64,000 bases of DNA from Tridacna crocea. Lineage: Eukaryota > Mollusca > Bivalvia > Cardiida > Cardiidae. Positions 2,073 through 63,890 of this stretch are shown piece by piece (the stretch's first letter is position 1; each line of letters begins with the position of its first letter). Both the position numbers and the translations under genes were made by a program. The notes under the pieces were generated by a model that did not search any database, was not told the DNA's origin, and worked only from the letters and a program-made list of their open reading frames with translations. The stretch is taken from positions 23,153,210 through 23,217,209 of the forward strand of contig OX031073.1 of the NCBI GenBank assembly GCA_943736015.1, given 5' to 3'.

Positions 2073-2301
2073 TTAACCCTTTCCCAAACAACAAATTTTA
2101 GACTCTTCCAAACTGAAAGAGTTTGCAGACAACAATTTTACATTTGATGAAAATGGTAGAAAGTTCTCCTAAAGGATAGAAAAACACTGTGGGAAAAGGA
2201 GAAATTGCTCGTTACGAGCAATTTCTCCTTTTCCCACAGTGTTTTCGAAAGACTTGCACTGCAGACACGTAAAAACCAGGGCTTGTTTGGGAAAGGGTTA
2301 A
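2073..2301 (-). mobile_element. TTAA-B MITE, complete
   Basis: Reference B copy: TTAACCCTTTCCCAAAC at the left, GTTTGGGAAAGGGTTAA at the right, about 229 bp. The core (2180-2247) is a near-perfect palindrome with CACTGTGGG / CCCACAGTG arms and a TTGCTCG / CGAGCAA centre, unlike the type A centre. Confidence 0.9.
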
Positions 2302-2496
2302 TAAGATTACATATCTTCAAGTTTACAGCAAGTTGTACCCCAACTCCCCTGGACGGTGATTCCACTATGCTTTTAAATTGTGGTGTATGGTATGCGCAGT
2401 GTGAGTAACATAGCCGAAGTGCAGGCATCCCAACAAAAGCGATGCCCAACCCTGTCGATCATAACTGCAAGTAGGAACACATTACTGCTGTGATTA

Positions 2497-2605
2497 TACC
2501 CCTGCAAAACGAATGTCCATGTGTTCGTCTGTGTACAAAATACTGTCAAAGCACTTGCAGGAGTGTAAAGTGATATTCAGTAAGTCAGCTTGTGTTTCTT
2601 CTAGG
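2497..2605 (+). repeat. P-family repeat (ACCCCYGCAAAAC)
   Basis: ACCCCTGCAAAACGAATG followed by TGTTCGTCTGTGTACAAAAT and CAAAGCACT. The same order is found at 34370-34550 and at the right edge of the window. Confidence 0.55.
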
Positions 2606-2830
2606 GCTGATGGTCAACTGCTGCAAAGCAGTTAAATTGCTGATCCTGTCTAGAAACATTTCAAAAGCGCTACAAAATCGCAGTTCCTGCCCATAGGTTG
2701 TAGGAAGTTCACAGTTGCAAAGTGGTAAGCATAAAATCCCATGCCATAGTGGGATGCATCACGGAGAGACCTCAAGTGCCGTAGAAGCACAACAATGGAT
2801 CACAGGTTCGTGATCAGTGCAGTGAGATAG

Positions 2831-3059
2831 TTATCTCATTACCAAACGACAATATTTTAGGCTTGTCCAAATTGAAAGCATTTGCAGACGACAAAATAAT
2901 GTGAATCAAAAATTGAAAACTGATTTGGAAAGGATAGAAAGCATTGTGGGAAAAGGAGAAAATGCTGGTAACCAGCATTTTCTCCTTTTCCCACAATGTT
3001 TTCAAAAGGCTTCTTCCTCAGGGTCGTTAAAAGTCAGGATTGTGTGGTAAAGAGTTATT
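2831..3059 (-). mobile_element. TTAA-A MITE, complete
   Basis: Left end TTATCTCATTACCAAACGAC (first TTAA mutated), right end GTGTGGTAAAGAGTTA. Intact core near 2938-3005 with a GCTGGTAACCAGC centre. Confidence 0.85.
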
Positions 3060-3119
3060 GAAGTATAACATAAATTCCTAAGTCCCAGAATGTTGCACAT
3101 GTAGGTGACAGTGTTGTTG

Positions 3120-3165
3120 CAAGATCAGACTGCATGTTCTGTGCAGTCTGATCTTAATCTACACT
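3120..3165. repeat. Q-family hairpin (AGATCAGACTGCA)
   Basis: AAGATCAGACTGCA, a short loop, then TGCAGTCTGATCTT and ATCTACACTGT. About 20 copies of this stem occur in the window, often beside MITEs; the full element boundary is unclear. Confidence 0.7.
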
Positions 3166-3548
3166 GTCTGCGAAAAGTCATTAAGTTGCATATAGCTACC
3201 TAAGTATTAAATATCTCTGGTTGAATCCCATGGAAAGTGTAACATGAATCAGCAAGGATCAGTTTACCTATGGTCAGTTTTATCTTTAACAAGGGTGTGG
3301 AAATCTCTTGGGCTAGAAGGTTAGGGACGGCTCTGTGAATTTTAATGTATGATTTTATTTTGTCCAGTTTTGAATTGGGTGAAGTTTAAGTCAGGTTCTA
3401 GTGTGGATTTACAAATTGATGCGATGTTTGTTGAGTTAACAAGGTTTTAATGTTTGGATAAATGTGTGCAGGTCATCTGTTGAGATAGTTAATTAACCTT
3501 AATTATTGCACAAATTGGGTCAGTTTTACTTTTACATTTGAACAGGAC
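3166..3548. other. No feature seen
   Basis: AT-rich sequence without coding potential or a repeat shared elsewhere in the window. Confidence 0.4.
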
Positions 3549-3763
3549 TTAACTCCTTCAACCAAATGACAAAAATGTAGACTTGGCGAAATTTTAGCAG
3601 TTTCAGACAAGAATTCTAATTTGACTTAATTGATGGAATTGGTCTCTGGTAGGTTGGAGAATATTGTAAGAAAAGGAGAAAATGCTGGTTACCTGCGAAC
3701 TTTTCTTTTCCTACTGTATTTTCTAGAGTCTTCAATACTCACATTTGTGTGGTAAAGAGTTAA
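3549..3763 (-). mobile_element. TTAA-A MITE, diverged
   Basis: TTAACTCCTTCAACC to GGTAAAGAGTTAA. The core is strongly mutated in its right arm (GCGAACTTTTCTTTTCC), so it is an old copy. Confidence 0.75.
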
Positions 3764-4044
3764 AATTGACGTAGTGGGGAGGCAAAAAAGTGTGTTTAGC
3801 TTGTCATACTTGGTAAAATGCATGTTAGAAAAGCAGCCTTTATGTGCCGTCAAGATTTATTTTTACCAAAGATGATTTTGAAGCATTTAGTAGCAACTCT
3901 AGTGGACTTTTCAATTTTAATCTGTGACATATCTCATTGAGAAATTTTTGTGCTTTGTCACAAACACTGAATCTCAATTTAAGATAAATATTTATTGTAT
4001 TACAAAGGATTTTAAAGATTCAAGACATAGATTGGACTCCTAAA

Positions 4045-4191
4045 TTATTTCTCATACCCTTTGAAGGGTAGAAAACATTGTGGGAAAAGGAAAAATGCTG
4101 GTTACCAGCATTTTCTCCTTTTTCCACAATGTTTTCTAAAGGCTTCTTTCTTAGGGTTATCAAAAGTAGGGACTGTGTGGTAATGAGTTAA
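4045..4191 (-). mobile_element. TTAA-A MITE, left half missing
   Basis: Core at about 4072-4136 and a complete right end finishing GGTAATGAGTTAA. The left terminal region is replaced by unrelated AT-rich sequence. Confidence 0.75.
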
Positions 4192-4214
4192 TTTAGTTTC
4201 TAATGTGGACAGTG

Positions 4215-4262
4215 TAAATAAAGATCAGACTGCAAAGAATATGCAATCAGATCATGAATCTG
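4215..4262. repeat. Q-family hairpin
   Basis: AAAGATCAGACTGCA with the mutated partner TGCAATCAGATCAT. Confidence 0.6.
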
Positions 4263-4380
4263 CAACTGCCTTTTGTTTTTGTAGGACATTCTGATTAAAA
4301 AAAAGTTGAAAAATTGCTAAATCTGTGTTTTAAATGTACTAATAGGGACTGTCTGTGTCATCTATGTAGCACTTTGTGGA

Positions 4381-4613
4381 TTAACTTTTTATGAAACAAC
4401 AAAACTTTTGACTTTTCCAAATCAAAAGCATTTCCAGATGAAGAAATAAATGAGACTGAAAAAGTTACTTTTGATTTGTGAAGGGTAGAAAACTTTGATG
4501 AAAAAGGGGAAAATGCTGGTTACCAGCATTTTCTCCTTTTCCACAATGTTTTCCAAAGGTCTCTTCCTTATGGTCATTAAAACTAGGGATTGTGTGGTAA
4601 AGTGATAAGTTAA
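4381..4613 (-). mobile_element. TTAA-A MITE, complete
   Basis: TTAACTTTTTATG left end; the right end carries a small insertion before the final TTAA (GGTAAAGTGATAAGTTAA). The core's left arm is mutated (AACTTTGATGAAAAAGGGG). Confidence 0.75.
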
Positions 4614-4878
4614 AAATGAAGGATAGAGTGGTAATATTTATTTGTCTGACAAATTTTTTTTTTGCAGTAAAAAAAGCTTTTAAAAAATTGAAAAAAATCT
4701 TAAGTGCTAAATTGATAGATGGACGGTGTCCAATAATTATTCTGATGATGGATTATATAAAGTGTAACCCCGGATTAAGACCGTAGCAGAAAGTATGGGA
4801 AAACCTTTCTCAAAATGCATCAACACAGTAAGTCATTTTCTAATTTTCCGTATAATTATTTAGATCTATATACAAAGA

Positions 4879-5068
4879 GCTCCAGATAGAGGGAGTGAAA
4901 TTGATTTTGAAATTGAAAATATGAATTATTCTCTTCTAAACCCCATGTTATGAGTATTCATTACAAATGTCTCATCGAGACAATTCTAATGAATACTCAG
5001 AACATTGGGTCTGGAAGAGAAATAAAGGATTTAGAATACCTTTGCGCCCTCTTATCTGGAGCTCTGAT
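4879..5068. mobile_element. O-family palindromic element (GAGCTCCAGATA)
   Basis: Ends GAGCTCCAGATAGAGGGAGT and its inverted form CTTATCTGGAGCTC enclose a long imperfect palindrome centred on CTCATCGAGA. Copies: 19957-20128, 33201-33389, 48500-48687. No target duplication could be fixed. Confidence 0.75.
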
Positions 5069-5075
5069 GTTAGAT

Positions 5076-5121
5076 GAAAAACTTCTTTAGTTTGAGCCGA
5101 AAAACTTCTTTAGTTTGAGCC
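5076..5121 (+). repeat. 23-bp tandem duplication
   Basis: GAAAAACTTCTTTAGTTTG-containing unit repeated twice in direct succession with no mismatch seen. Confidence 0.85.
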
Positions 5122-5154
5122 GAATGCCATATATTTGACCCTAAAACTCCAGAT

Positions 5155-5205
5155 AGCATGCAGAGATCCATTCTGTGCAGTCTCATCTCAATCTATTCAG
5201 TTTGC
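5155..5205. repeat. Q-family remnant
   Basis: CAGAGATCCATTCTG then TGCAGTCTCATCTC and AATCTATTCAGT; the left stem is lost. A similar remnant lies at 5748-5800. Confidence 0.45.
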
Positions 5206-5212
5206 AAAATCA

Positions 5213-5458
5213 GAGCCCTGGTAGCTCAGTTAGCGTACAGGACTTGAGAACAGTAGGTAGATGGTTTGATCTCCCTTGACCAATATCTTTCCTCTCTTAC
5301 TGCTGGACCATTGTTTCGATGGTTGTTTGGGAAAGAAACCAGTGGCTTGGAAAGAATATTGTGTAGAATACTGATTTAGGAAAGCATAATACCACTGACC
5401 AACATGATATTTCTGAAATAATGTCGAAAACGCCATTGAAAGACCATACAATCAATCC
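5213..5458 (+). mobile_element. tRNA-type SINE
   Basis: GAGCCCTGGTAGCTCAGTTA head with A-box-like bases, a degraded B box (ATGGTTTGATCTCCC), the body (GACCATTGTTTC, CCAGTGGCTTGGAAAG) and a 3' tail GACCATACAATCAATCC. It preserves the uninterrupted sequence at the point where the copy at 18402 was invaded by the 18550-19322 element. Confidence 0.75.
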
Positions 5459-5514
5459 ATTAGTTTCTAAGCTGAAGCAGGGTGCCACATTTTTGACACT
5501 AGAGATCTGTATAG

Positions 5515-5739
5515 CCCATTAGCACACAATCCCTACTTTTGACGCCCCTGAGAAAGAAGCCTTTAGAAAACATTGTGGGCAAAGGAGAAAATGCTGGTAA
5601 CCATCATTTTCTCCTTTTCCCACAGTGTTTTCTACCCTTCACAAAACAAATTTCAAATTTTCAGTCACTTTTATTTTGTTGTCTGCAAATGCTTTCGATT
5701 TGGATAAGCCTAAAATGTTGTCGTTTGGTAATGAGTTAA
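5515..5739 (+). mobile_element. TTAA-A MITE, complete
   Basis: CCATTAGCACACAATCCC left end (TTAA mutated), TCGTTTGGTAATGAGTTAA right end, near-intact core. Confidence 0.85.
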
Positions 5740-5747
5740 ATAGCATG

Positions 5748-5800
5748 CAAAGATCCATTCTGCACAGCCATATCTCAATCTTTTCAGTTTGTAGATACCG
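5748..5800. repeat. Q-family remnant
   Basis: GCAAAGATCCATTCTGCACA followed by ATCTCAATCTTTTCAGTTTG, a close relative of 5155-5205. Confidence 0.4.
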
Positions 5801-5820
5801 TTTAAATTGTTACTAGGTCT

Positions 5821-5965
5821 TTAACTCTGTAGCAAACATTCATGAGATTTAAGAAAAAGCCTTCTGAAAACATGACAGGAAAGGAAAAATTCCTGGTAAC
5901 AAGCATTTTCTCCTGTTACCACATTTTTTTCTATCCTTCCCAAAATGAATTTTAATTTTCAAGGT
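5821..5965 (+). mobile_element. TTAA-A MITE, degraded and truncated
   Basis: TTAACTCTGTAGC left end and a damaged core (AAACATGACAGGAAAGG ... TGTTACCAC). The right third is missing. Confidence 0.6.
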
Positions 5966-5969
5966 AGTA

Positions 5970-6018
5970 GGTTTTGGACTAATGAAGAGCCCCAGGTTTT
6001 GGACTAATGAAGAGCCCC
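5970..6018 (+). repeat. 25-bp tandem duplication
   Basis: GGTTTTGGACTAATGAAGAG followed by CCCC is present twice, one base apart, directly beside a truncated MITE. Confidence 0.85.
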
Positions 6019-6149
6019 TAATGTTGTATGAATTACAGCTGTGGAAACAAAACAAATGTTTTACAATTGTTAACATGGATGCTGGGGTCATTTTACTGAC
6101 CCTTGCAGTCAAATACATGAACGAAAAAAATTTCACTTGTAGTTTATCC

Positions 6150-6378
6150 TTAACTCATTTCCAAATGACAATATTTTAGGTTGGTCTAAATTGAAAGCAT
6201 TTGCAGACAACAAAATAGATGTGACTGAAAAACTTAAATTTGGTTTGAGAAGAGTAGAAAACGTTGTGGGAAAAGGAGAAAATGCTGGTTACCAGCATTT
6301 TCTCCTTTTTCCACAATGTTTTCTAAAGGCTTCTTTCTCAGGGTCGTTAACAGTCGGGATTGTGTGGTAAAGAGTTAA
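6150..6378 (-). mobile_element. TTAA-A MITE, complete
   Basis: TTAACTCATTTCCAAATGAC to GTGTGGTAAAGAGTTAA; intact core around 6258-6325. Confidence 0.88.
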
Positions 6379-6439
6379 CTTATTTAAGAGGATGTCGAGG
6401 ATAGCTTATAACCCTAATGAAATGCATTTCACACCTGTA

Positions 6440-6605
6440 ATTGGCTTTGCATCCCAGTGTAGATTAAGATAAGAATGCACAAAACATGCAGTCTTATCTT
6501 TGATAGATCTACAATGTCTTCTTGATTATACACGACATACATGAGCAACCATGAAATTGCAGTTATTTTGGTCATATTTTTAGACTGCAAATGCCTCAAG
6601 GGTTC
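6440..6605. repeat. Q-family hairpin with extended flank
   Basis: Stem at about 6462-6510 (TAAGAATGCACAAA / ATGCAGTCTTATCTT), then the downstream block GCAACCATGAAATTGCAGTT ... TTTTTAGACTG, also seen after the stems at 14465 and 42493. This suggests a 150-200 bp element. Confidence 0.6.
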
Positions 6606-6769
6606 ATTTGGCAGGGTCTGAAGAATCCACTCATCCCCTCGTCCTACCAACTAAAATTTGGTGAGGGCAAGTAGATTATCCATCTTTGTCTAGCTGTAGG
6701 ACAAGTGCAAAATGGCAAGAGGACAAGTAAGAATTCTGAAATTTTTTGGACTGTGATTGGGTGATCTAG

Positions 6770-6850
6770 GGGTTAAATATTGTTGGAAATGAAAAAAATG
6801 CATGTAACCAGCATTTTCTTCATTTTCAACAATATTTTCTTGGCTTGAAA
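6770..6850. mobile_element. TTAA-family core remnant
   Basis: TATTGTTGGAAATGAAAAAA / CATTTTCAACAATATTTTC palindrome with a GTAACCAGC centre; flanks not recognisable. Both arms share the TTGG... / ...CAA change. Confidence 0.5.
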
Positions 6851-7089
6851 AGTCAAAAACTACCATTTTGAGACACATTTTATAAAAGCTGCAAAAATTT
6901 GTCTCTCAATCAATGTTGAATAAATAAGCCATCTTTGAGAAAAGGTCTCCTAATACAATTGCAAAAAGTATCAACTCAGGTCTGCCTGCACTGAAACTTT
7001 TTGCTATTGGTCAATTGTGTACAAGTCCAAGACCCAGTCTTCCTCATAATAAAGATGGTTTTTGTTGAAAAAATCAAATTAATGTCTAT

Positions 7090-7461
7090 TATGAACCCTT
7101 AAGTATTTTTAAATTCCTTGTTCGGTATCATGCATCACGCAGATGCATTCAGCATCCTTTTGCCAGGGCACAGTTCAAATGTTTAACTCATTTCAACACA
7201 ATCCATACTTTTGACGACCCTGAGAATGAAGCCTTAAGAAAACTGTGGAAAAAGGAGAAATTCCTCATAAGCAGCAATTTCTCCTTTTACCACAGTGTTT
7301 TCTGTTTTATGAACCCTTAAGTATTTTTAAATTCCTTGTTCGGTATCATGCATCACGCAGATGCATTCAGCATCCTTTTGCCAGAGCACAGTTCAAATGT
7401 TTAACTCATTTCAACACAATCCATACTTTTGACGACCCTGAGAATGAAGCCTTAAGAAAAC
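7090..7461 (+). repeat. 154-bp direct duplication around a MITE core
   Basis: Bases 7090-7243 recur at 7308-7461 with an offset of 218 bp and about one mismatch seen. The copies begin TATGAACCCTTAAG and end inside the left flank of a type A MITE. The spacer is exactly a type B core. Confidence 0.9.
7183..7303 (+). mobile_element. Chimeric MITE: A left end with B core
   Basis: The A-type flank (TTAACTCATTTCAACACAAT, ACTTTTGACGACCCTGAG) runs into a core at 7242-7303 identical over 62 bp to the B core at 7859-7920, including its private mutations. The right flank is missing. Confidence 0.85.
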
Positions 7462-7796: not shown

Positions 7797-7797
7797 C

Positions 7798-8025
7798 TTA
7801 ACCCTTTCCCAAACAAGCCCTGGTTTTTACGTGTCTGCCATAAAAGTCTTTTGAAAACACTGTGGAAAAAGGAGAAATTCCTCATAAGCAGCAATTTCTC
7901 CTTTTACCACAGTGTTTTCTACCCTTTTTGAGAACTTTCTGCCATTTTCTCCAAATCTAAAATTGTCGTCTGCAAACTCTTTCCGTTTGGAAGGGTCCAA
8001 ACTTCATCGTTTGGGAAAGGGTTAA
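7798..8025 (+). mobile_element. TTAA-B MITE, complete
   Basis: TTAACCCTTTCCCAAACAAG to TTTGGGAAAGGGTTAA, one base after the preceding A element. Its core (7859-7920) carries CCTCATAAGCAG at the centre, breaking the palindrome, and is the exact match of the displaced core at 7242-7303. Confidence 0.9.
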
Positions 8026-8817: not shown

Positions 8818-9118
8818 ACTCTCTACCAAACGACAAAATTTGGGCCTTGTCCAAATTGAAAGGATTTGCAGACGACAAATCGATGGCTGAGTGCAACACT
8901 ATCCTAAGTGCCTATACAAAGTATAGGCACTTAGGATAGTGTTGCACTCACCCATCGAAATGTAACTGAAATAATGATTTTTGTTTTGGATGGGGGAGAA
9001 AACATTTCGGAAAAGGGAGAAAATGCTGGTTACCAGCATTATTTCCTTTTCCAACAATGTTTTCAAAAGGATTCTTATACAGGGGCATAAAAAGTCGTGA
9101 TTGAGTAGTAAAGAGTTA
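8814..9118 (-). mobile_element. TTAA-A MITE with nested hairpin
   Basis: Abuts the previous half-element at a shared TTGA. The left flank CGACAAAAT...AATGTAACTG is split by the 8881-8957 hairpin. Core near 8998-9065; right end AGTAAAGAGTTAA. Confidence 0.8.
8881..8957. mobile_element. 77-bp near-perfect hairpin inserted in a MITE
   Basis: Arms of 37 bases with one mismatch and a 3-base loop (CGATGGCTGAGTGCAACACT on the left, its complement on the right). Flanked by AAAT on both sides, a possible 4-bp target duplication. A diverged relative is at 58150-58222. Confidence 0.85.
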
Positions 9119-14811: not shown

Positions 14812-15133
14812 ACCATACAATCCAGATATTTAATGACCCTTAGAAAATTAGCCTGTTAAAAGATATTGTGGGGAAAAGAAACCAGGGCCCATATTCACAA
14901 ACCATTCTTAAGAACGTTCTTTGTCATTTTTTTCCCCTGAATTTTCTACATTTATAAGTAACACAACTTCTGATTGGCTAAACCATTCTGTTTAGCCAAT
15001 CGGAAGTTGTGTTACTTACAAATGTAGAAAATCTTAGAGAATAAGACCAAGAATATTCTCAAGAATGGTTGGTGAATACGGACCCTGCGTTTTCTCCTTT
15101 CCCACAATGTTTTCTACCCTACCAAAGGCAATT
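14812..15133 (+). mobile_element. TTAA-A MITE split by an H element
   Basis: Left part ACCATACAATCCAGATATTT ... GTGGGGAAAAGAAACCA and right part TTTTCTCCTTTCCCACAATG flank the H element at 14885-15086. The break falls inside the palindromic core. Confidence 0.8.
14885..15086. mobile_element. H-family hairpin element, complete, nested
   Basis: Left end GGGCCCATATTCACAAACCA and right end TGGTTGGTGAATACGGACCC. A long stem is built from AAGTTGTGTTACTTACAAAT and its partner around a GTTTAGCCAAT turn. Sits in the core of a type A MITE, so it is the younger element. Confidence 0.82.
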
Positions 15134-19956: not shown

Positions 19957-20128
19957 CTCCAGATAAGGAGGGATGGTATTCTAAATCTATTATTTTTCTT
20001 TCAAACCCTATGTTGTGGGTACTCATTAGAATCGTCTCAATGAGATGATTTCTATGAATACCCATAAATAGGGTTTAGTCGAGAATGATAAATATTTACA
20101 AAATTGAAATCAAAATCACTCCCTCTGT
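19957..20128. mobile_element. O-family palindromic element
   Basis: CAGCTCCAGATAAGGAGGGA start; AAACCCTATGTTGTGGGTAC / GAATACCCATAAATAGGGTTT arms; ends TCACTCCCTCTGTCTGGA. Confidence 0.75.
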
Positions 20129-21281: not shown

Positions 21282-21510
21282 TTAACCCTTTACTCCATAG
21301 ATACTCATTCTGATGTATCAACAACAGACAGCTTTTGAAAACATTGTGGGAAAGGAGAAATTGCTCGTAAAGAGGAATTTCTCCTTTTCCCACAATGTTT
21401 TCCACTCAATCAGATAGTTGTATCCTCATTTGTCCATATTTTTGACATCATAACTTAATTTGCTGCTGAAATGGAAGAGCCTCAAATTGGCATATCAGGT
21501 AAAGGGTTAA
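21282..21510 (+). mobile_element. TTAA-D MITE, complete, with readable empty site
   Basis: TTAACCCTTTACTCCATAG to GCATATCAGGTAAAGGGTTAA. Core around 21337-21402. It splits an array unit: joining the flanks gives GAACTAATTAAGGACAAGTG, against GAACTAATTGAGGAGAAGTG in a neighbouring unit (near 23475). This supports duplication of TTAA only. Confidence 0.92.
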
Positions 21511-26218: not shown

Positions 26219-26447
26219 TTAACCCTTTATCCCATAAGGCATTTCTATGGTATCTCTGATTGACCCTAAATAACAGCAAGGATGAAGCCATTTTTTATGG
26301 GTATTTGACACCTTTTGATAGCATAGAAAACATTGTGACAAAAGGTGGAATTGCTCGTCACGAGCAATTTCACCTTTTGCCACAATGTTTTCCAAAGGCT
26401 CCTACAAGCAATGCGTGGAAATGACTATCTATGGAGTAAAGGGTTAA
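26219..26447 (-). mobile_element. TTAA-C MITE, complete
   Basis: TTAACCCTTTATCCCATAAG to ATCTATGGAGTAAAGGGTTAA. Core 26328-26392 with GTGACAAAAGGTGGAATTGC on the left and GCAATTTCACCTTTTGCCAC on the right, so two mismatches. Confidence 0.9.
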
Positions 26448-26633
26448 TTGAAAGCATTTGCAGATGCCAGTTTCATTGTGGCTGACATAATGAAATTATT
26501 TTTCCTTGATAAGGTGGAAAAACTGTGGGAAAAGGAGAAAATGCTGGCAACCAGCATTTTCTCCTTTTCCCACACTGTTTTCAAAAGCCTTCTCTTTCAG
26601 GGGTGTTAAAAGTCATCAATGTGTGGTAAAGGG

Positions 26634-26863
26634 TTAACCCATTACCACACAATCCCTACTTTTGACGACCCTAAAAGAAGAAGCCTTTGGAAAACATTGT
26701 TGGAAATGAAGAAAATGCTGGTAACCAGCATTTTCTTCTTTTCCCACAATGTTTTCTACCCTTATCAAAACAAATTTCAAATTTTCAGTCACTTTTACTT
26801 TGTCGTCTGCAAATGCTTTCGATTTGGACAAACCTAACATTTTGCCTTTTGGTAATGAGTTAA
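26634..26863 (+). mobile_element. TTAA-A MITE, complete, chained
   Basis: Shares TTAA with its neighbours on both sides. Both core arms carry GAAGAAAA / TTTTCTTC in place of GGAGAAAA / TTTTCTCC. Confidence 0.9.
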
Positions 26864-27100
26864 CTCTTTACCACATAATCCCGACTTTTAACGACCTTCA
26901 GAAAGTAGCCTATAGAAAAAATTGTAGAAAAAGGAGAAAATGCTGGTAACCAGCATTTTAACCAGCATTTTCTCCTTTTCCCACAATGTTTTCTACCCAT
27001 ATCAAAACAAATTTCTAATTTTCAGTCACTTTTACTTTGTCGTCTGCAAATGCTTTCGATTTGGACAAACCTAAAATTTTGCCGTTTGGTAAAGAGTTAA
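26860..27100 (+). mobile_element. TTAA-A MITE, complete, loop duplicated
   Basis: TTAACTCTTTACCACATAAT to CCGTTTGGTAAAGAGTTAA. The core has AACCAGCATTTT repeated in its right arm, a slippage product at the hairpin tip. Confidence 0.88.
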
Positions 27101-29962: not shown

Positions 29963-30191
29963 TTAACCCATTACCACACAATCCCTACTTTTGACGCCCC
30001 TGAGAAAGAAGCCTTTTGAAAACACTGTGGGAAAAGGAGAAAATGCTGGTAACCAGCATTTTCTCCTTTTCCCACAGTGTTTTCTACCCTTCCCAGAACA
30101 AATTTCAATTTTTCAGTCACCTTTATTTTGTCGTCTGCAAATGCTTTCAATTTGGACCAGTCTGAAATTTTCTTGTGTGGTAAAGAGTTAA
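29963..30191 (+). mobile_element. TTAA-A MITE, complete
   Basis: TTAACCCATTACCACACAAT to TTGTGTGGTAAAGAGTTAA. Core arms carry CACTGTGGG / CCCACAGTG, the B-like version on both sides. Confidence 0.92.
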
Positions 30192-30420
30192 ACCTTTCCC
30201 AAACAACAAGACTTTGGACTAAACCAAATTGAGAAGGTCAGCAGAACAGATAATTATCAAATGTACCACTCATGATGATTTCTGTTTTTGATAGGGTAGA
30301 AAACATATTGGGAAAAGGAGAAAATGCTGGTTAACCAGCATTTTCTCCTTTTCCCAATATGTTTTCAAAAGGACTTTTCTTCTGGGTCGTAAAAACCAGG
30401 GATTGATTTTGAAAGGGTTT
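30188..30420 (-). mobile_element. TTAA MITE, A/B intermediate, chained
   Basis: Shares TTAA with the previous copy. Core near 30299-30368 has CATATTGGG / CCCAATATG, a matched pair of changes, and a two-base longer centre GCTGGTTAACCAGC. Right end TTGAAAGGGTTT. Confidence 0.85.
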
Positions 30421-32648: not shown

Positions 32649-32877
32649 TTAACCCATTACTCCATAGATACTCATTTCTACGCATTGCTTGTAGGAGCCT
32701 TTGGAAAACATTGTGGCAAAAGGTGAAATTGCTCGTGACGAGCAATTTCACCTTTTGCCACAATGTTTTCTATGCTATCAAAAGGTGTCATATACACATA
32801 AGAAATGGCTTTATCCTTGCTGTTATTTAGGGTCAATTAGAGATACAATAGAAATGCCTTATGGGGTAAAGGGTTAA
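32649..32877 (+). mobile_element. TTAA-C MITE, complete, reference copy
   Basis: TTAACCCATTACTCCATAG to TTATGGGGTAAAGGGTTAA. Core 32703-32770 is perfect: GTGGCAAAAGGTGAAATTGC, centre CTCGTGACGAG, exact complement. The left end is shared with type D, the right end is not. Confidence 0.93.
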
Positions 32878-32908
32878 CAATGTTTTTGAGAAAATCTTAA
32901 AGATTGCT

Positions 32909-33200: not shown

Positions 33201-33389
33201 CAGAGCTCCAGATAAGAGGGAGTGATAGTATTCTAAATCCGTTATTTCTCTTCCAAACTCTATGTTGCGGGTACTCATTAAAATCATCTCGATGAGACAT
33301 TTCTAATGAGTGACCATAACATAGAGTTTAGTGGAGAATAACTGATATTTTCAATTATCATGAATCACACCCTCTATCTGGAGTTCTTA
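33201..33389. mobile_element. O-family palindromic element
   Basis: GAGCTCCAGATAAGAGGGAG start, ACTCCCTCTATCTGGAG-like end, AAACTCTATGTTGCGGGTAC / GTGACCATAACATAGAGTTT arms. Confidence 0.78.
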
Positions 33390-34893: not shown

Positions 34894-36179
34894 ACCAGGG
34901 GTCCTCAGGTGCCAGGACAATATGCGGATAGCATGCCGATAACAAATTTAATATTCGGCAAAGCTTCTTCATGTTCCTGATGGCTTCTTATTGTTGTCCT
35001 GGATGCTTCCTCCTGAATCAGAGCCTTCCGCATTGGCAATTTTGTCCTCGTCAAAATTTTGATCAAGAGAAATAAATTTCCTTACACCTTCAGCATCTTG
35101 TCCGCATTGTCGTCAGGACATTGTCAGGACACAGTCAGGACATCCTGAGTCTTCTTTTTATTTTCCCAAAAGCTTCAGCGACACAGACAGCTTGCAGACA
35201 CTTGGGAAAACGTATGGAAGCTAAGAGAATTTGATACAGAAGGTTCGCAGAATCTTTCCTGAATGTTCAGAGCGGTCGTGGTATGCTCCTAGAACATGGG
35301 TAAAATGTTACATAACCTACTCCCTTCACATATCAAAATCAGTGTTCTGTCACTTGCAGTTGACCTTAAACAGGGCGGACATGTTTTTAATCTCTCCTGC
35401 ACAACAATATGCCGGGACAAAAGTGAAAAACAAAAGTTGACTTGGCAAAAAACAGGCGACTGGAGTTTGTGATAATTTTAATTTTGCTTGTCTAGGGCAA
35501 CGTTATTTCCTCTGATAAACTGCAAATTTGACGTAAGTCTACAGAACGAGAGAACCAAGTGCTTTAATATAAACTATAACTTGCCTGCTAGGGTTTTGTG
35601 CTTCATATATGACTCTTATATCATGACTGGAAAGTTGTTATCATATTGTTCATAAGCACTTTGTGGACAATCTATTTATGCCTTATTCGATGTCTCTGTT
35701 GAATTGCAAGCATGACTCGTACATCGTAGCAAAAATACCACCAAGTATTGGAAGTAGGCTTCATTGTATGATTTGAATATGCCTTTCAGATTCTGTTTGC
35801 AGCAATATAGCTACCTGTATTCGTCTGACCTCCATGATGGAAATCTCTTGAATGAAAATAAATTCGGTACATGCAACCTCTGCACCGCACGGTCTAAGTG
35901 TCATGCATTGAAACTGGTTGTCCCAAATGTTTCCTAAATGTGTCTGTGTTGTCCTGAAACGATCCGGTCTCACGCCTGAACATTCGTTAACGTTCAGGAT
36001 TCTTTACACGGACAATCCTAAGTATGCTAGCAAGAAGTCCACAGACAGTCTGGGGATGAATACATTTCTGTACTGAATCAGTATTTTCCCACCCGACAGT
36101 ATGCCAAAATCAATTTATTTTTACCGCAAGGCTTCCTTGTCCCCTCCGTGTCCTAGTGGATGCCAGGCTTAAAGAGATA
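34894..36179. other. Unassigned 1.3 kb; short GTCAGGACA repeats
   Basis: No MITE. At 35106-35150 GTCAGGACA-type motifs are repeated three times, and CTGAACATTC near 35976 resembles the inverse of GAATGTTCAG near 35263, so a large diverged inverted repeat is possible. No coding signal. Confidence 0.35.
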
Positions 36180-36290
36180 AAACCAATGTTGTTGGTGCTT
36201 ATTCAAATTGTCTCATTTAGATGATTCTAATGAGGACCAACAGCATAGGATGTCTTGAAAAAATCATGATTTTTTTAAGATTCAATTTCC
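36180..36290. repeat. O-like palindrome
   Basis: CCAATGTTGTTGGTGCTTAT / GAGGACCAACAGCATAGG arms around CTCATTTAGATGATTCTAAT, related in layout to the O family centre. Confidence 0.55.
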
Positions 36291-36917: not shown

Positions 36918-37050
36918 AATTCACGTTTTTGAGGTCGTTAACATTCGCAGAGGCCCGAAAAATGCTTTAACGCCCGAGTGCGAAGCACGAGGGTGTTTAA
37001 GTATTTTGAGGGCCTCTGCGAATGTTAACGACCGAAAAAAACGTGAAATA
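36918..37050. repeat. 133-bp palindrome
   Basis: Arms of about 60 bp (TTCACGTTTTTGAGGTCGTT and AACGACCGAAAAAAACGTGAA) meet at CCCGAGTGCGAAGCACGAGGG. Mismatches are few, mostly near the centre. Confidence 0.85.
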
Positions 37051-39299: not shown

Positions 39300-39484
39300 A
39301 GAAGATTTTGAAGACATTGTTGGAAAAGGAGAAAATGCTGGTAACCATCATTTTCTTCTTTTCCAACAATGTTTTCTACCCTCTAAAAGGCATATTTCAT
39401 ATTTTTAGAAGCATTTAATTTGTTGTCTGCAAATACTTTCAAGTTGGGAACAGTCTAAAATTTTGTTGTTTCGTAAAGGGTTGA
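39300..39484 (+). mobile_element. TTAA-A MITE, left tip lost
   Basis: GACATTGTTGG / CCAACAATG core arms match each other although both differ from the usual TGTGGG / CCCACA. Right end TTTCGTAAAGGGTTGA. Confidence 0.8.
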
Positions 39485-45774: not shown

Positions 45775-46000
45775 TGACACTACGCAGAGGAATGACCGGG
45801 GTCAGTATTCTATGTAGAGTAAAAACCCCTTGGGGTCATTTCTCTATGTAGAAAAATGAACCGGGTCATTCCTCTGCGTAGAGAAATGACCCATGGGTCA
45901 TTCCTCTACATAGTAAAATGACTTCTGGGGTCATTTCTTTACATAGAATATTATGACCCAGGTTTTTTTTTTATGTGGGAGGGTCATTTCTCTGCATTAC
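45775..46000. repeat. Palindromic ATGACC satellite, block 2
   Basis: Starts CTACGCAGAGGAATGACCGG, at least five modules, ends GTGGGAGGGTCATTTCTCTG as in block 1. The shared terminal context indicates a bounded element rather than a free satellite. Confidence 0.8.
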
Positions 46001-47755: not shown

Positions 47756-47984
47756 TTAACCCTTTACGCCATGAGGCATTTCTATGGCATCTCTAATTGA
47801 CCCTAAATAACAGTAAGGATGAAGCCGTTTCTCATGTGTAAACGACACCTTTTTATAGCATAGAAAACATTGTGACAAAAGGTGAAATTGCTCGTCACGA
47901 GCAATTTCACCTTTTGTCACAATGTTTTCCAAAGGCTCCTACAAGCAATGTGTAGAAATGAGTATCTATGGAGTTAAGGTTTAA
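47756..47984 (-). mobile_element. TTAA-C MITE, complete
   Basis: TTAACCCTTTACGCCATGAG to GGAGTTAAGGTTTAA. Core arms GTGACAAAAGGTGAAATTGC / GCAATTTCACCTTTTGTCAC are fully matched, including the changed GAC / GTC. Confidence 0.92.
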
Positions 47985-48499: not shown

Positions 48500-48687
48500 G
48501 CTTTAAATAGAGGGAGTGATTTTGATTTCAAACTCGGAAATATTAATCATTCTCCACTAAACCCTATGTTATGGGTACTCATTAGAATCGTCTCAATGAG
48601 ACGATTCTAATGAGTACCCACAACATAGGGTTTGGAAGATAATAACGGATTTAGAACACCATCACTCCGTCTTATCTTGAACTCCGG
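48500..48687. mobile_element. O-family palindromic element, best copy
   Basis: GAGCTTTAAATAGAGGGAGT start. Central palindrome of about 75 bp: AAACCCTATGTTATGGGTAC ... ATCGTCTCAATGAGACGAT ... GTACCCACAACATAGGGTTT with one or two mismatches. Confidence 0.85.
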
Positions 48688-54548: not shown

Positions 54549-54672
54549 TTAATCAAGTGATTTCGTATTGCCCAGTTACAGGTCCTCGGTCAGCCGTATT
54601 GATCCTCGGCCTCGGGCCAATACGGCTGACCTCGGACCTGTAACTGGGCCAATACGAAATCACTTGATTAAT
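54549..54672. repeat. 124-bp near-perfect palindrome
   Basis: Arms of about 57 bp (ATTAATCAAGTGATTTCGTA ... GGTCAGCCGTATTG and complement) with one indel and one mismatch, around ATCCTCGGCCTCGG. Contains the CAATACGG motif of 54215-54375. Confidence 0.9.
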
Positions 54673-58149: not shown

Positions 58150-58222
58150 GGTTTAGTGCAATACTATTGTAAGTGCATATACACTGTATATGCACTTAAA
58201 ATAGTCTTGAACTTACCTTTCG
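58150..58222. repeat. Hairpin related to 8881-8957
   Basis: TAGTGCAATACTATTGTAAG, TGCATATAC / GTATATGCA and AAATAGTCTTGAACTTA: same layout, about 70% similar, stem now imperfect. Confidence 0.6.
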
Positions 58223-58860: not shown

Positions 58861-58883
58861 TCCTTAGGCCCTAGAGTGCCAAG

Positions 58884-59109: not shown

Positions 59110-59944
59110 GCCAGCAGAATTTTCTATAGTCAAATAAAACAAAAGGGTTGGTCAGACTGGCTGATGGATAATTATGTAAGGAGGGAAAACAGACAAAATA
59201 TGCAGAATTTGGTAATCCGGTGACAAAATTCATCTTCTCTGCCAGTTAAGGCTTATGCCATTGGCATGGAGTGAAGATACCACACAACGACTGCTCAAGT
59301 GCAGGTCATGAAAAAATGCACATGTACCAGATATGTACCGGATTATGAACAGTCTATCAATGGATATCAACCTACAAGTATCAGAGTGACAGCATGCGTG
59401 TCGTAAAAGGCGACAAAAGGGGCATCATTTTGTGTTTCATCCATTCCTCATTTATCATGTTTGTCTTACGTTGTTGCACATGTATGTTATTTTCACCTCG
59501 CATTATTGTTTACTAAGTAAGTTTGTGGACGGGCCTTAATATGCTATTCATTCAAAACGCTATTCATTCCAACATACAATGAACGGAAAATATAAACGAC
59601 ATATGAGGAACATGCTGGTCTCCTGACATGCGGTGGGTATAGATAGTCAGATGCGTCCAAAGTCTGCCATTGGCATGTCTGTGTATGTTTTGTCCAGTGG
59701 AAATCTTTAAACACGCTCAAAACATCTCACCTGACGGAACAGATATCACCGGATGTTGCAAGACAAGTAGTGGATTCACCGGATAAGAAACATAAATAAT
59801 AATATTACATAAAACGGTTACGAAGAGACACAAAGGTATAAAATGATTTTTTATCCGTTACTTGTCTGTTAACTCGGTGTGACCAAACCTTGAAGTTTAA
59901 AGTTTGCCTTTGTCCTGAATGTCTCTGCAGAGTGGATGGTGTAG
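59110..59944. other. No feature seen
   Basis: 835 bp without MITEs or shared repeats. Confidence 0.4.
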
Positions 59945-60000
59945 ATGATAGAACAGACTGTTTCTTTTATGCAGTTTGATCTTTATCTATGCTGGCCGCA
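59945..60000. repeat. Q-family remnant
   Basis: GATAGAACAGACTGTTTC / ATGCAGTTTGATCTTTATCT. Confidence 0.5.
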
Positions 60001-60018
60001 AGACAACTGGTACTATGA

Positions 60019-60147
60019 TTAACCCTTTCCCAAATGACAAATTTTGGACTCTTCCAAACCAAAACAGTTTGCAGACGGCAATTTTGGCAATTTTAAGACT
60101 TTTACTGTAGACACGTAAAAACCAGGGCTTGTTTGGGAAAAGGTTAA
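60019..60147 (-). mobile_element. TTAA-B MITE lacking its core
   Basis: TTAACCCTTTCCCAAATGAC and GCAGACGGCAATTTTGGCAA join to AAGACTTTTACTGTAGACAC and end GGGAAAAGGTTAA. All of the palindrome is missing; both terminal flanks are preserved. Confidence 0.87.
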
Positions 60148-60308
60148 GGTCTAAAGTGTTCAATACTGTGAATCATGATTCATTCAATATCAGTGAAAAT
60201 TGGACCACAAGAAAAAGTTTGAAATGGTGATGATGGACAAAATACTGATGATGAAATTCTTCCACCTCTAAAACAAGCATAATAGACTTATCAGTTTCTT
60301 GCAGTGTT

Positions 60309-60531
60309 TTACAATCCATAGATACTTATTTTGAGGTATCAACAACAGACAGCTATTGAAAATATTGTGAGAAAAGGAGAAATTGCTCCTAACAAGCAAT
60401 TTCTCCTTTTCCCACAATGTTTTCCACTCAGTCAGATCTTTGTATCTTTATTTGTCCATATTTTTGACATCATATCTTTATTTGCTGCTGAAACGGAAGG
60501 GTTCAAATTGGCATATCAGGTAAAGGGTTAA
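60309..60531 (+). mobile_element. TTAA-D MITE
   Basis: TTACAATCCATAGATACTTA to GCATATCAGGTAAAGGGTTAA; core with TTGCTCCTAACAAGCAA centre. Left TTAA mutated. Confidence 0.86.
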
Positions 60532-60617
60532 ATGAAACTTTCAAGCAGGTAGTAAAACATGCTATTTCAAATTTACATTTTGGAGAAAAATACCTCTTTA
60601 TTGGGACAGTATAGATC

Positions 60618-60668
60618 GATCCAAGATCAGACTGCATATTCTGTGCAGTCTGATCTTGAAATCTACAC
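60618..60668. repeat. Q-family hairpin
   Basis: CCAAGATCAGACTGCATATT / GTGCAGTCTGATCTTG. Confidence 0.75.
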
Positions 60669-60711
60669 TGTTTGCAAGAGGTCAGTGAGTCATGCTTCAC
60701 AACCTAAGGGG

Positions 60712-60940
60712 TTAACTCATTACCACACAACAATATTTTAGGCTTGTCCTAATCGAAAGCATTTGCAGACGACAAAATAAAAGTGACTGAAAATTTAAAA
60801 TTTGTTTTGTGAAGGTTAGAAAACATTGTGGGAAAAGGAGAAAATGCTGGTTACCAGCATTTTCTCCTTTTCCCACAGTGTTTTCAAAAGGCTTCTTTCT
60901 CAGGGGCGTCAAAAGTAGGGATTGTGTGGTAAAGGGTTAA
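60712..60940 (-). mobile_element. TTAA-A MITE, complete
   Basis: TTAACTCATTACCACACAAC to GTGTGGTAAAGGGTTAA; core near 60818-60886. Confidence 0.9.
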
Positions 60941-61240
60941 GCGTCAAAACATAAAGGGAAAGGATCAGGCCCCAAATGTCCTCTTTATATTGGAGATTTT
61001 GTCTTGTGCCGCATGCATTCACATGATTTACGGATAAATGGATGGAGGTACTCGATGTGGTAATTGGATCTTAGTAACTGTTGCTGTTTTTTTTTGTTGA
61101 AGAAAAAAAATGAGTGCTTTGTGATAGAGTTAAAAGTGATAGATTGAAACACTTTATTTTTCTTCATGAGGAAGTAACACTGTTACTAATACTTATATGT
61201 GAACAAAAAAATGTGAAGATAGTTGGTAAATTTTGTTTGA

Positions 61241-61468
61241 TTCAACTCATTACCAAATGGCAATAATTTAGATTTGTCCAAATCCAAAGCATTTGCAGCC
61301 GACAAAAATGACTGAAAATTTGAAATTTGGTTTGTGAACAGTTAAGAAAACATTGTGGGAAAAGGAGAAAATGCTGGTTACCAGCATTTTCTCCTTTTCC
61401 CACAATGTTTTCTAAAGGTTTCTTTCTCAGTGTCATCAAAAGTTACGGGATTGTGTGGTAATGGGTTA
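61241..61468 (-). mobile_element. TTAA-A MITE, complete
   Basis: TCAACTCATTACCAAATGGC to GTGTGGTAATGGGTTAA; core near 61345-61413. Confidence 0.88.
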
Positions 61469-61482
61469 AATTTTGAATAACC

Positions 61483-61655
61483 TTAACTCTTTACCATACA
61501 GTCCTAACTTTTAATGTTCCTGAGGAAGAAGCCTTTTGAAAACACTGTTGAGAAAAGGAGAAAATGGTGGTACCCAAAATGTTTTCTAACTATTCAGAAA
61601 AAAAAACCTTTCATCATTTTAGATATTGTTAATTTGCTGTCTGTAAATAATAACT
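61483..61655 (+). mobile_element. TTAA-A MITE, right core arm deleted
   Basis: TTAACTCTTTACCATACAGT; left arm to GAGAAAATGGTGGTACCC, then directly AAAATGTTTTCTAAC. Confidence 0.75.
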
Positions 61656-61657
61656 CA

Positions 61658-61890
61658 ACTTACCCTATTACCACACAATCCCTACTTTTCATGACCTTGA
61701 GAAAGAAGCCTTTTAGAAAACATTGTGGATAAAAGGAGAAAATGCTGGTAACCAGCATTTTCTCCTTTTCCCACAATGTTTTCTACCCATTTCAAATCAA
61801 ATTTCAGATTTTCAGTCACTTTTATTTTGTTGTCTGCAAATGCTTTCAGTTTGGATATATGTAAAATTTTGTCTTTTGGTAAAGAGTTAA
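61658..61890 (+). mobile_element. TTAA-A MITE, complete
   Basis: CTTACCCTATTACCACACAA to CTTTTGGTAAAGAGTTAA; core left arm has an extra TA (GTGGATAAAAGG). Confidence 0.87.
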
Positions 61891-61909
61891 AAAGCTCGAA
61901 GAGTCAAAA

Positions 61910-62190
61910 TTTGTATTGTGCGTTTTTTTCTACCTTTCCCAAAACAAATTTCAATTTTTCAGTCACATTTATTTTGTAATCTACAGTCCATCTTCTAGTG
62001 GGCAGCATTCTAAAACTTTCTTTGCAAGAGACAAAATACTGCAGGAAAAGGAGAAAATGCTTGTTACAGAAAAGAAGAAAATGCTGGTTACCAGCATTTA
62101 ATCCTTTTCTAACAATGTTTTTGCGAAGCTTCTTCCTTGGGGTAGTGAAATCTTCGGGTTGTGTGGAAAATGTTATTTTTTTTGTGAGAT
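61910..62190. mobile_element. Rearranged TTAA-A MITE, core arm duplicated
   Basis: A + oriented right flank (TTCAGTCACATTTATTTTGT) precedes a - oriented core in which GGAGAAAATGCTTGTTACAG and AAGAAGAAAATGCTGGTTAC are tandem left arms; end GTGTGGAAAATGTTA. Confidence 0.65.
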
Positions 62191-62339
62191 CTTTTGTATG
62201 GATTAGCTTACTCTTTCATGTTTACATCATCTCTGTTTATTTCCTAGAACTGTTTATAGAGGGTTACAGGTGAAAAATAGTACAAACAATACCTTTTAGG
62301 AAATAAATCATCTTGTAATTCAATTTGCATGTACCTTTC

Positions 62340-62440
62340 TGTCTTTGAGTTGGTGTAAAGTATTGTTGGAATAGAACTTTATTCTGGTAACCATCATTTT
62401 CTTCTATTGGAACAATTTTTTCAAACCCCTCTCTGAAAGG
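62340..62440. mobile_element. TTAA-family core remnant
   Basis: TATTGTTGGAATAGAACTTT / CATTTTCTTCTATTGGAACA with GGTAACCA at the centre. Confidence 0.5.
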
Positions 62441-62462
62441 ATTCATCTAACTCTAAATGCTC

Positions 62463-62688
62463 AGGTTACCAAATGACAAAATTTTGGACTGGTCCAAAAT
62501 GAAAGCCTTTGCAGAGGACAAAAATGAATGTGAGTAAAAAAATTGGAATTTGTCTTTGGAAGGGATGAAAACATTGTGGGAAAAGGAGAAAATGCTGGTT
62601 ACCAGCATTTTCTCCTTTTCCCGCAATGTTTTCAAGAGACTTCCTTCACAGGGGGTGTTAAAAGCCGGGATTGAAAGGTAATGGGTTA
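62463..62688 (-). mobile_element. TTAA-A MITE, near complete
   Basis: AGGTTACCAAATGACAAAAT to TGAAAGGTAATGGGTTAA; core near 62567-62634. Confidence 0.85.
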
Positions 62689-62829
62689 AACTCTGTTACG
62701 CAAAGAGTTAACTGTTTCATCACTGAATTATAAATAAACTGCATTTTCTCAAGGACTACAAAAACAGTTCCAATACAATATATACAGACAGTTCGATCAT
62801 AATCTGGAATAAAGCTGGGAACAGCTTAG

Positions 62830-62882
62830 ATCAGAGATCAGATTGCATGTTCTGTGCAGTCTGATCATAATCTACACTGTCC
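62830..62882. repeat. Q-family hairpin
   Basis: CAGAGATCAGATTGCATGTT / GTGCAGTCTGATCATAATC. Confidence 0.7.
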
Positions 62883-62984
62883 ACTAAAGCTTCTGGTGTC
62901 ATCTTTGATATGGAAAAAGTTAATGGGATAAATTAACTGTTGCTGCAAATCTTGCTTTGGATAGCTTTTGCCAGTGGAGTAGAG

Positions 62985-63030
62985 CAAGATCAGAGTGCAA
63001 TGTACAGTCTGATCTTAGATCCAAACTGTT
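62985..63030. repeat. Q-family hairpin, short loop
   Basis: GCAAGATCAGAGTGCAATG / TACAGTCTGATCTTAG. Confidence 0.65.
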
Positions 63031-63121
63031 AGGTACCAGATGCTAATATATATACTACTCAAACTTAGATAGGGATCACTTACATATTTCTGTATGGGTT
63101 TATAAGTTACAACAGTTTTGC

Positions 63122-63354
63122 ATAAACTCTTTATCATACTATAAAACTCTAGATTTGTCCAAGTTGAAAGCATTTGCTGACCAAAAACTATATGCAACGT
63201 GCACTATGCTGTCTGCATGTAACATGGTAGAAAACATTGTTGAAAAAGGAGAAAATGCTGGTATCTAGCATTTTCTCCTTTTCCAACAGTGTTTTCCAAA
63301 GGCTTAATTCTTTCTCAGTGTCTTTAACAGTCGGCATTGTGAGGTAAACGCTTA
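63122..63354 (-). mobile_element. TTAA-A MITE, diverged
   Basis: ATAAACTCTTTATCATACTA to GTGAGGTAAACGCTTAA; core arms CATTGTTG / CAACAGTG. Confidence 0.78.
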
Positions 63355-63715
63355 AAGATCCATTTCCACTGGTCATTTTATTGCTCAGTGTGGCAAAAAA
63401 CCATACATGATACATGCCACATATATATATTTAGAGTGAATCTTTTAGGCTGATCCCTAGCAAATTTTGAGTAGTATATATTTGACCAAAATCAGCTTCA
63501 GTTACAAATAAAACATTATACTTTCCGACTCTGACTAGGAGAAAAATGGAATCTACTCAGGTGGCAGCGAAAATGGTTAATGGACATCAAATTATCATGC
63601 ATACTTATGTATTATCTTTATTGTTCTTTATGGTTCATTTTGACCATTAAATCAACTGTCAATCAAAAATAGTATTATCAGCCCATGTATGCAGTAGATC
63701 AACCTTTACCTTAAT
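63355..63715. other. No feature seen
   Basis: 360 bp, AT-rich, with a short (TA)n run near 63421. Confidence 0.35.
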
Positions 63716-63890
63716 CTTATGCCAAACAATCCGAGTTATAACAACCCTGAAAAAGATGCCTTTTGAAAACATGGTGGGAAAAGTAGAAAATGCTGGTAAC
63801 CAGCATTTTCTACTTTTCCCACAATGTTTTTGGCACTGTCAAAGACACTGGAATCATTGTGTGAGCTACATTCAATGTGTCACTGTAAAT
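63716..63890 (+). mobile_element. TTAA-A MITE, right end lost
   Basis: TCTTATGCCAAACAATCC left; core with GTAGAAAA / TTTTCTAC on both arms instead of GGAGAAAA / TTTTCTCC; right flank fades after TTGAGCYAC-like sequence. Confidence 0.78.

Follow-up and report, generated by a model that had tools for sequence, protein, structure and literature searches.

Mirrored changes in the palindromic core of an abundant TTAA-flanked miniature element of Tridacna crocea

The CMITE families of miniature inverted-repeat transposable elements (MITEs) in Acropora corals are described, in the available portion of that paper, as having a TTAA duplication, CC[C/T]T ends, a piggyBac partner and head-to-tail arrays, and as being ~100 bp long with a 75-base internal region that is better conserved than the terminal repeats and for which the authors, as we do below, guess a cis role (PMC2872659). 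For the rice MITE mPing, the accessible text states that internal sequence can raise or lower mobility (PMC9921582). Template switching at hairpins and quasi-palindromes has been published as both a maker and a keeper of stems (PMC8794818), its signatures, as far as the available excerpts go, being mirrored multi-base changes, arm homogenisation and spacer inversion (PMC8794818, PMC8604942, PMC3820800). Here we describe a 64-kb stretch of the Tridacna crocea genome (C18:23153210-23217209 of 1.05 Gb in 31 contigs; hereafter the window) in which an initial annotation had noted hairpin cores whose two arms change together. We found that these cores are the central palindrome (33-nt arms, 1-nt centre) of a ~230-bp TTAA-flanked element, laid out as TTAA, CCC[T/A]..., a left flank of 55 nt, the 67-nt core, a right flank of 107 nt and TTAA, and that this element is a non-autonomous, TTAA-targeting, piggyBac-type MITE.

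How a stem stays paired while mutations strike at random has long been asked, and compensatory change tends to be read as proof of selection on RNA; here, in a DNA element, the mirrored changes fall into two classes, founder pairs that are inherited and those of a small process that recurs. With moderate confidence we favour the explanation that near-perfect palindromes amplify while rare arm-to-arm template switching supplies mirrored changes. Paired changes would then have two sources, founder changes in amplifying lineages and low-rate arm copying in single copies. A lineage with both arms changed would amplify and its copies would inherit the pair (as in families A, C and E and in the B subfamilies marked by pair 8 or 24), and lineages with mismatched arms would found few further copies, so that the palindrome and much of its sequence would be kept in the lineages that multiply. 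The second source would lie at the hairpin, where template switching, or the resolution of a cruciform, would copy one arm onto its partner, a step that would flip the centre base too; inserted copies would otherwise decay one arm at a time. The family pattern, the contrast between internal branches and tips, the core and flank rates, the surplus of doubles at pairs 19 and 24 and the scatter of centre flips are direct observations; a cis requirement of the palindrome for amplification, and template switching as the way in which an arm is copied, are inferred.

The pattern is present between families. A consensus core was derived for each family, from 11 clean cores in A, 175 in B, 13 in C and 3 in E; all four are exact palindromes, and apart from the centre base all of their differences are paired: A differs from B at pairs 8, 26 and 31, E from B at pairs 26 and 31 (the right arm of the E consensus at pair 31 being a three-way tie), and C from B at pairs 14, 21, 26 and 31 on both arms, plus the centre base. 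Members of these families in the window include the following.

29963-30192, + strand: full-length B element used as reference, TTAA-CCCATTACC... to ...GGTAAAGAGTTAA; core 30018-30084, with pair 8 changed from T-A to C-G on both arms
2073-2299, - strand: A-family element; core 2181-2245, arms exactly complementary, pairs 8, 26 and 31 changed on both arms
32649-32878, + strand: C-family element; core 32704-32770, arms exactly complementary, pairs 14, 21, 26 and 31 changed on both arms
47756-47984, - strand: C-family element; core 47863-47929, with an additional paired change at pair 13
26219-26447, - strand: C-family element; pair-13 change on the right arm only, a one-arm (G.T) state
21282-21510, + strand: E-family element; left end shares 28 nt with C, right flank differs, pairs 26 and 31 changed on both arms
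60358-60424, + strand: core belonging to another E-like copy; paired at pair 26, unpaired at pair 31

The initial annotation had cited the A and C copies as differing on both arms. In the C copy (32704-32770) all four differences from B are indeed mirrored; in the A copy (2181-2245) three pairs are changed on both arms, but the motif quoted for it, TGTGGG/CCCACA, is no change, as it also occurs in the B consensus.

Family cores are identical at 58-65 of 67 positions. Right flanks without their ends align at shuffle-level scores for all family pairs except A/B, and left flanks match over 10-12 nt between families, over 28 nt in C/E and over nearly the whole length in A/B. Compared in register, left flanks are alike at 28-36 of 51 sites and right flanks at 0.34-0.64, vs 0.28 when shuffled; from this likeness and the equal layout lengths we took the families as related by descent. 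Between A and B, 3 of 33 core pairs have changed vs 45 of 134 flank sites (p 0.005), and between B and C, 4 of 33 core pairs vs 23 of 51 left-flank sites (p 0.002). The internal core is also kept better between families than the terminal repeats, and likewise within B (change rate 0.062 in the core vs 0.127-0.167 at the ends). Since paired core differences lie below flank level, neutral arm copying alone is insufficient. With its ends and flanks drifting around it, the retained core is a candidate for a sequence that MITE amplification requires in cis.

Single copies show mirrored changes beyond those of their families. The initial annotation had named five such cores, namely the C-family core at 47863-47929 listed above and four others.

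30299-30366, - strand: loop-less 68-nt perfect palindrome; both arms altered at the neighbouring pairs 9 and 10
26690-26756, + strand: core with pair 20 paired; pairs 12 and 18 unpaired
39310-39376, + strand: core with pair 12 paired; pairs 4, 20 and 29 unpaired
63766-63830, + strand: core with a paired G>T at pair 20; pairs 9 and 1 unpaired

The GTGAC/GTCAC change claimed for the first of these is present as G>A at pair 13 on both arms, and pairs 9 and 10 of 30299-30366 are changed together as described. Each mirrored change named for the other three (G>A at pair 20 of 26690-26756, G>T at pair 12 of 39310-39376, and G>T at pair 20 of 63766-63830) is also present, but these three of the five single cores carry the further unpaired changes listed above, which had gone unmentioned. 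The observation that arms change together is partly confirmed.

To put numbers to this pattern we counted cells by state. In the window, 83 copies retain 45 nt or more of the core, and 24 stretches of 10 kb elsewhere in the genome hold 159 (0.66 per kb), from which a genome total of roughly 0.7 million copies may be extrapolated. The window count used 73 of the 83 cores, those with at most 2 core gaps (10 were dropped); insertions relative to the consensus did not enter the projection, and 17 of the 73 cores were not recoverable letter for letter. Both arms were changed and complementary in 59 cells, both changed and non-complementary in 19, left only in 132 and right only in 102. A null keeping copy and position totals gave 20.7±3.6 complementary cells, with 0 of 300 draws reaching 59, and for the B family alone there were 20 vs 11.8±2.9 (1 of 300 draws). 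A separate tool count on 56 of the 73 cores found 44 both-changed cells vs 11.5±2.8 shuffled and 8-18 slid; distinct changed pairs numbered 10, vs 6.9±1.5 shuffled and 5-10 slid, and so were not above the slid controls. As the excess is large in cells and not in distinct pairs, it is real and rests largely on a few inherited changes.

Outside the window, 129 clean cores of the 159 gave 89 paired cells, 36 both incompatible, 313 left only and 262 right only, and the same five diagnostic changes as in the window supply 56 of the 89. For the window together with the 240 kb elsewhere (202 clean of 242 cores) there were 148 paired and 811 one-arm cells, with a null of 51.0±6.0. B cores without the pair-26 change held 60 paired cells vs 32.9±4.7 (174 cores), or 39 vs 24.1±4.6 outside the window only (113 cores). 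The terminal repeats, taken as a control, showed no excess of paired changes (20 vs 24.0). These counts bear on shared ancestry plus chance, in which a few random double changes were inherited with no process behind them. The 10 distinct pairs within the slid range speak for it, as do 41 near-full B copies, in which 13 both-changed cells vs 7.3 expected (1.78x) lie within the slid range of 0.23-2.06, and the pair-24 doubles treated below, which come mostly from one subfamily. We give it very little credence, given that the arms of the family consensuses differ by paired changes only, that the B cores without the pair-26 change retain an excess, and that both-arm changes at pair 19 (also below) reach a ratio of 5.0 vs 2.1 off register.

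Changes were placed on trees built from the flanks. On the first (49 near-full copies, joint parsimony), internal branches carried 8 paired and 3 one-arm changes, and tips carried 5 paired, 125 one-arm, 7 incompatible and 1 other (Fisher test, 3.9e-8). On the second (153 copies, of which 101 lie outside the window), clades with at least three members carried 7 paired and 5 one-arm changes; clades of two carried 0 paired, 9 one-arm and 1 incompatible; and tips carried 22 paired, 468 one-arm and 14 incompatible. The resulting contrast in paired to one-arm changes (7:14 internal vs 22:468 at tips, p 6e-5) is weaker than that of the 49-copy tree. Slid controls gave 0 internal double changes at 10 of 12 offsets, and 3 each at +5 and -5. 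In 50 mirrored flank column pairs, internal branches had 301 one-arm changes and 13 doubles, of which 2 matched and 11 did not; tips had 1,374 one-arm changes and 87 doubles, of which 21 matched and 66 did not. The one-arm internal to tip ratio is 14:468 in the core vs 301:1374 in the flank pairs (odds ratio 0.14), i.e., one-arm changes are strongly under-represented among inherited changes, though present. When trees were made from 65% of flank columns and rates judged on the remainder (12 splits), the core/flank rate ratio was 0.15 on internal branches and 0.49 at tips, and unpaired changes, which the initial annotation had proposed to compare with flank divergence, thus reach the flank-predicted frequency only in part. 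Selection on amplifying lineages fits both the internal depletion of one-arm changes and the slowness with which cores diverge between families, and the mirror image appears to be renewed in multiplying lineages, not kept up in place.

The recurrent component was sought in genome-wide counts of places in which one pair is changed within an otherwise exact 35-nt palindrome, the inner 35 nt of the core occurring as an exact palindrome at 173,858 places. Pair 19 was changed on one arm at 6,386+6,250 places and on both arms at 1,150, vs 230 if independent (5.0x), and an off-register 19/24 control gave 94+78 places vs 81 expected (2.1x); both-arm changes at pair 19 thus exceed the off-register control, as expected of template switching at a hairpin. 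Letters were counted by eye at the listed places (100 one-arm at pair 19; 50 both-arm per pair), which are those met first along the contigs and thus no random sample. Among the 50 listed pair-19 doubles, 37 were complementary (26 A/T, 11 T/A) and 13 were not; the complementary doubles exceed the off-register control about 2.8-fold, an excess of ~547 places or 4.0% of changed pairs. G>T doubles at this pair (~253 vs 10 expected) are far more in excess than G>A doubles (598 vs 133). Pair 24 was changed on one arm at 1,229+997 places and on both at 281, or 39.9x independence, and 44 of its 50 listed doubles were complementary, 41 of these being A>C. The two one-arm counts at pair 24 are unequal by assembly strand (1,229 forward, 997 reverse), which is unexpected under random insertion orientation.

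Flanks of fetched copies separate the two pairs. Of 20 A>C pair-24 copies, 19 were usable, with a flank identity of 0.782 among themselves vs 0.716 to random B copies and with 11 parsimony origins vs 18.3±0.8 for random sets; as these copies share flanks, founder inheritance explains most of pair 24, largely as one subfamily. Pair-19 G>T copies (10 of 11 usable) had a flank identity of 0.653 within vs 0.688, and 10 origins of 10; pair-19 G>A copies (7 of 9 usable) were scattered too, with 7 origins of 7 (random, 6.9). The mirrored change at pair 19 looks recurrent, and arm-to-arm copying seems to proceed at a low rate. Among the 40 cores fetched, 20 for each pair and each selected for that one pair, L042 (C1:45288465-45288939) has a core with four paired changes and L048 (C2:18477905-18478379) one with three, two of them adjacent, and we regard both as candidate single template-switch events.

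The centre base gave a further indication. In 128 near-full B copies it is A in 99, T in 20, G in 7 and C in 2. The A>T change (20 of 128, 15.6%) is ~12x as frequent as at arm A sites (34 of 2,537, 1.3%; p 8e-14), while A>G stands at 5.5% vs 2.6% (p 0.08). On the flank tree the A/T state requires 17 steps vs 18.8±1.1 shuffled, a ratio of 0.91 that marks it as scattered; at 34 comparable flank sites the ratio averages 0.55 (range 0.18-1.06). The A>T excess is what spacer inversion would leave, and the centre flips resemble the inversion known for arm-to-arm template switching (PMC8604942, in its available part). Copies with a T centre were not more homogeneous, the 20 having 37 changes on the left arm only and 35 on the right arm only, vs 175 and 139 in the 99 with an A centre.

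The same observations could be turned toward ongoing arm-to-arm conversion in inserted copies, which would keep the arms alike by concerted evolution in place: both-arm counts at pairs 19 and 24 stand above the off-register control, centre flips are scattered over the tree, and adjacent paired changes occur at 30299-30366 and in L048. However, only about 3-4% of changed pairs at pair 19 are truly paired, and neutral conversion should bring paired differences to flank level, yet just 3-4 of 33 core pairs differ between A or C and B. The tip ratios of one-arm to paired changes, 125:5 in the 49 copies and 468:22 in the 153, rule out in-place maintenance as the main process, and we consider this explanation quite improbable.

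Selection on an RNA hairpin (a small-RNA precursor or structured transcript), with compensatory changes passing through G-U intermediates, would also give mirrored changes. Four of the cores fold at -51 to -56 kcal/mol with z of -13 to -16, and MITE-derived miRNAs are known (PMC1784062, from the accessible portion), but 11 of the 19 paired change types in the window are transversions, impossible via G.U and about equally common among one-arm changes (118 of 234). One-arm changes in the 202 cores show no strand preference (210 of G.U type for the element strand vs 226 for the opposite one), and no Rfam match was obtained at gathering score. The transversion share and the lack of a G.U strand bias argue against compensation in RNA by way of wobble pairs; RNA selection left no sign in the tests made, and we hold it to be highly improbable.

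A last alternative is that cores are passed between elements as cassettes, through gene conversion from copy to copy or through template switching, which would homogenise the core and carry paired differences along as blocks. One rearranged copy bears directly on it.

7089-7303, + strand: rearranged copy, a direct duplicate plus a core patch from another family
7798-8025, + strand: A-family element; core matching patch 7242-7303

Coordinates read off the alignment match lines put 7089-7243 as a direct duplicate of 7307-7461 (1 mismatch in 155), and the 62-nt patch 7242-7303, which a B left flank adjoins, is identical to the A core at 7859-7920, 617 nt downstream. The closeness of cores relative to flanks between families is likewise what cassettes would give. 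This is nevertheless the one clear case. Of the 7 copies flagged for discordant flank and core labels, two are family E, and cassette movement does not itself generate the paired changes; we judge it unlikely as the general explanation.

Several observations weigh against our preferred combination of amplifying palindromes and rare template switching. The off-register control consists of one position pair only. Incompatible pair-19 doubles are also above independence (~299 vs 87; ratio 3.5, confidence interval about 1.9-5.4), and with these as baseline the excess falls to 358 places, so that 2.6% of changed pairs are truly paired, down from 4.0%. Random sets give 9.8±0.5 origins vs the 10 of the pair-19 G>T copies, and because the sampled copies are a tiny share of those in the genome, 10 origins would be expected of any scattered set. 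One-arm states do propagate, with 5 on clades of three or more and 9 on clades of two, although in two of the five large-clade cases a single pair-26 change is counted at two nodes, which favours our explanation; the pair-12 G>T change stands on the left arm alone in 7 of 73 window cores. Deep paired changes are confined to a small number of stems, which leaves few independent founder events. The core sharing between families could come from core exchange of the kind seen at 7242-7303. A comparison of private (singleton) core and flank rates, 0.0145 vs 0.017-0.020 in 41 copies and 0.0069 vs 0.0028-0.0034 in 128, was dropped because the ratio reversed with sample size.

The initial annotation had offered arm-to-arm conversion or selection for the fold as causes. 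Neither fits alone and each does in part: conversion fails as in-place upkeep and survives as the low-rate arm copying at pair 19, and selection on amplifying lineages agrees with the shortage of one-arm changes on internal branches and with cores that change slowly from family to family. A stronger version of the explanation we prefer, which we advance only tentatively, is that the palindrome is a functional amplification unit, a cis module, common to families with right flanks diverged almost past recognition, that spreads well only with matching arms and is rewritten by template switching. If so, the genome would offer several hundred thousand natural hairpin replicates from which germ-line rates of arm copying and centre inversion could be read directly; copy number already makes founder and recurrent rates measurable.

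The ends of the element agree with its assignment to the piggyBac type. With several bases of play allowed in the end search, TTAA lies near both ends in 27 of 45 near-full window copies (left 34, right 35) and in 48 of 92 outside (left 62, right 69); copies without TTAA at an end were taken as decayed. The eight commonest motifs after the left TTAA (90 copies) are CCCT in 41, CCCA in 23, CTCT in 12, CCTT in 5 and others in 9, i.e., CC[C/T]T is exact in 46 of the 90, with CCCA and CTCT one base off. The piggyBac transposase domain PF13843 had 118 matches in the genome (best 2.3e-94), the top 22 free of internal stops. Head-to-tail arrangement is seen in one array of three elements, with TTAA common to neighbours at two junctions.

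26446-27100, strands -, + and +: three B elements head to tail, with TTAA shared near 26636 and 26862; the C element 26219-26447 (- strand) adjoins

Other repeats and palindromes were noted in passing. Two cores suggest possible slippage at the hairpin, 26913-26995 with a 12-nt tandem duplication next to the centre and 62033-62169 with a repeated right arm. A second, unrelated 75-nt palindromic family, P1, has 5 copies (4938-5010, 20003-20076, 33255-33329, 36179-36249 and 48559-48633); as a second test it gave 4 paired, 3 both-but-different and 28 one-arm changes, too few copies to decide. A 37-nt palindrome, AAGATCAGACTGCA...TGCAGTCTGATCTT, occurs at 11 window places including 60622-60658, and long palindromes of other families lie at 8880-8958, 58155-58213, 14941-15032, 36926-37040, 45780-45963 and 54570-54649. 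A protein search with an open reading frame overlapping two copies matched 5 nameless ENA proteins, seemingly translations of the same element, and pattern scans of the viral_contigs and genome_contigs collections gave no match.

A literature search, outside which lay Repbase and most journals, did not meet the combination of a palindromic interior, mirrored differences concentrated in amplifying lineages, and a measured single-copy minority. On the descriptions available, the CMITEs appear to be the closest known system, likened by description and not by sequence: both have TTAA, CC[C/T]T, piggyBac, several families with different ends around a conserved interior, and arrays. Unlike the ~100-bp CMITEs with their 75-base interior, the Tridacna crocea element has 230 bp, a 67-nt palindromic core and mirrored differences, and its copies run, by extrapolation, to hundreds of thousands. 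Like Made1, from which hsa-mir-548 is known (PMC1784062, available part), it is a short MITE able to form a hairpin, whereas its palindrome is internal and its ends are TTAA. With mPing it would share an effect of internal sequence on mobility in cis, although that element is from rice and the accessible text mentions no palindromic module (PMC9921582). The pair-19 doubles, adjacent double changes and centre flips are like those of template switching, and differ from the published cases, as far as these are described in the available texts, in that the signal comes from many copies of one palindrome and from a minority of their changes.

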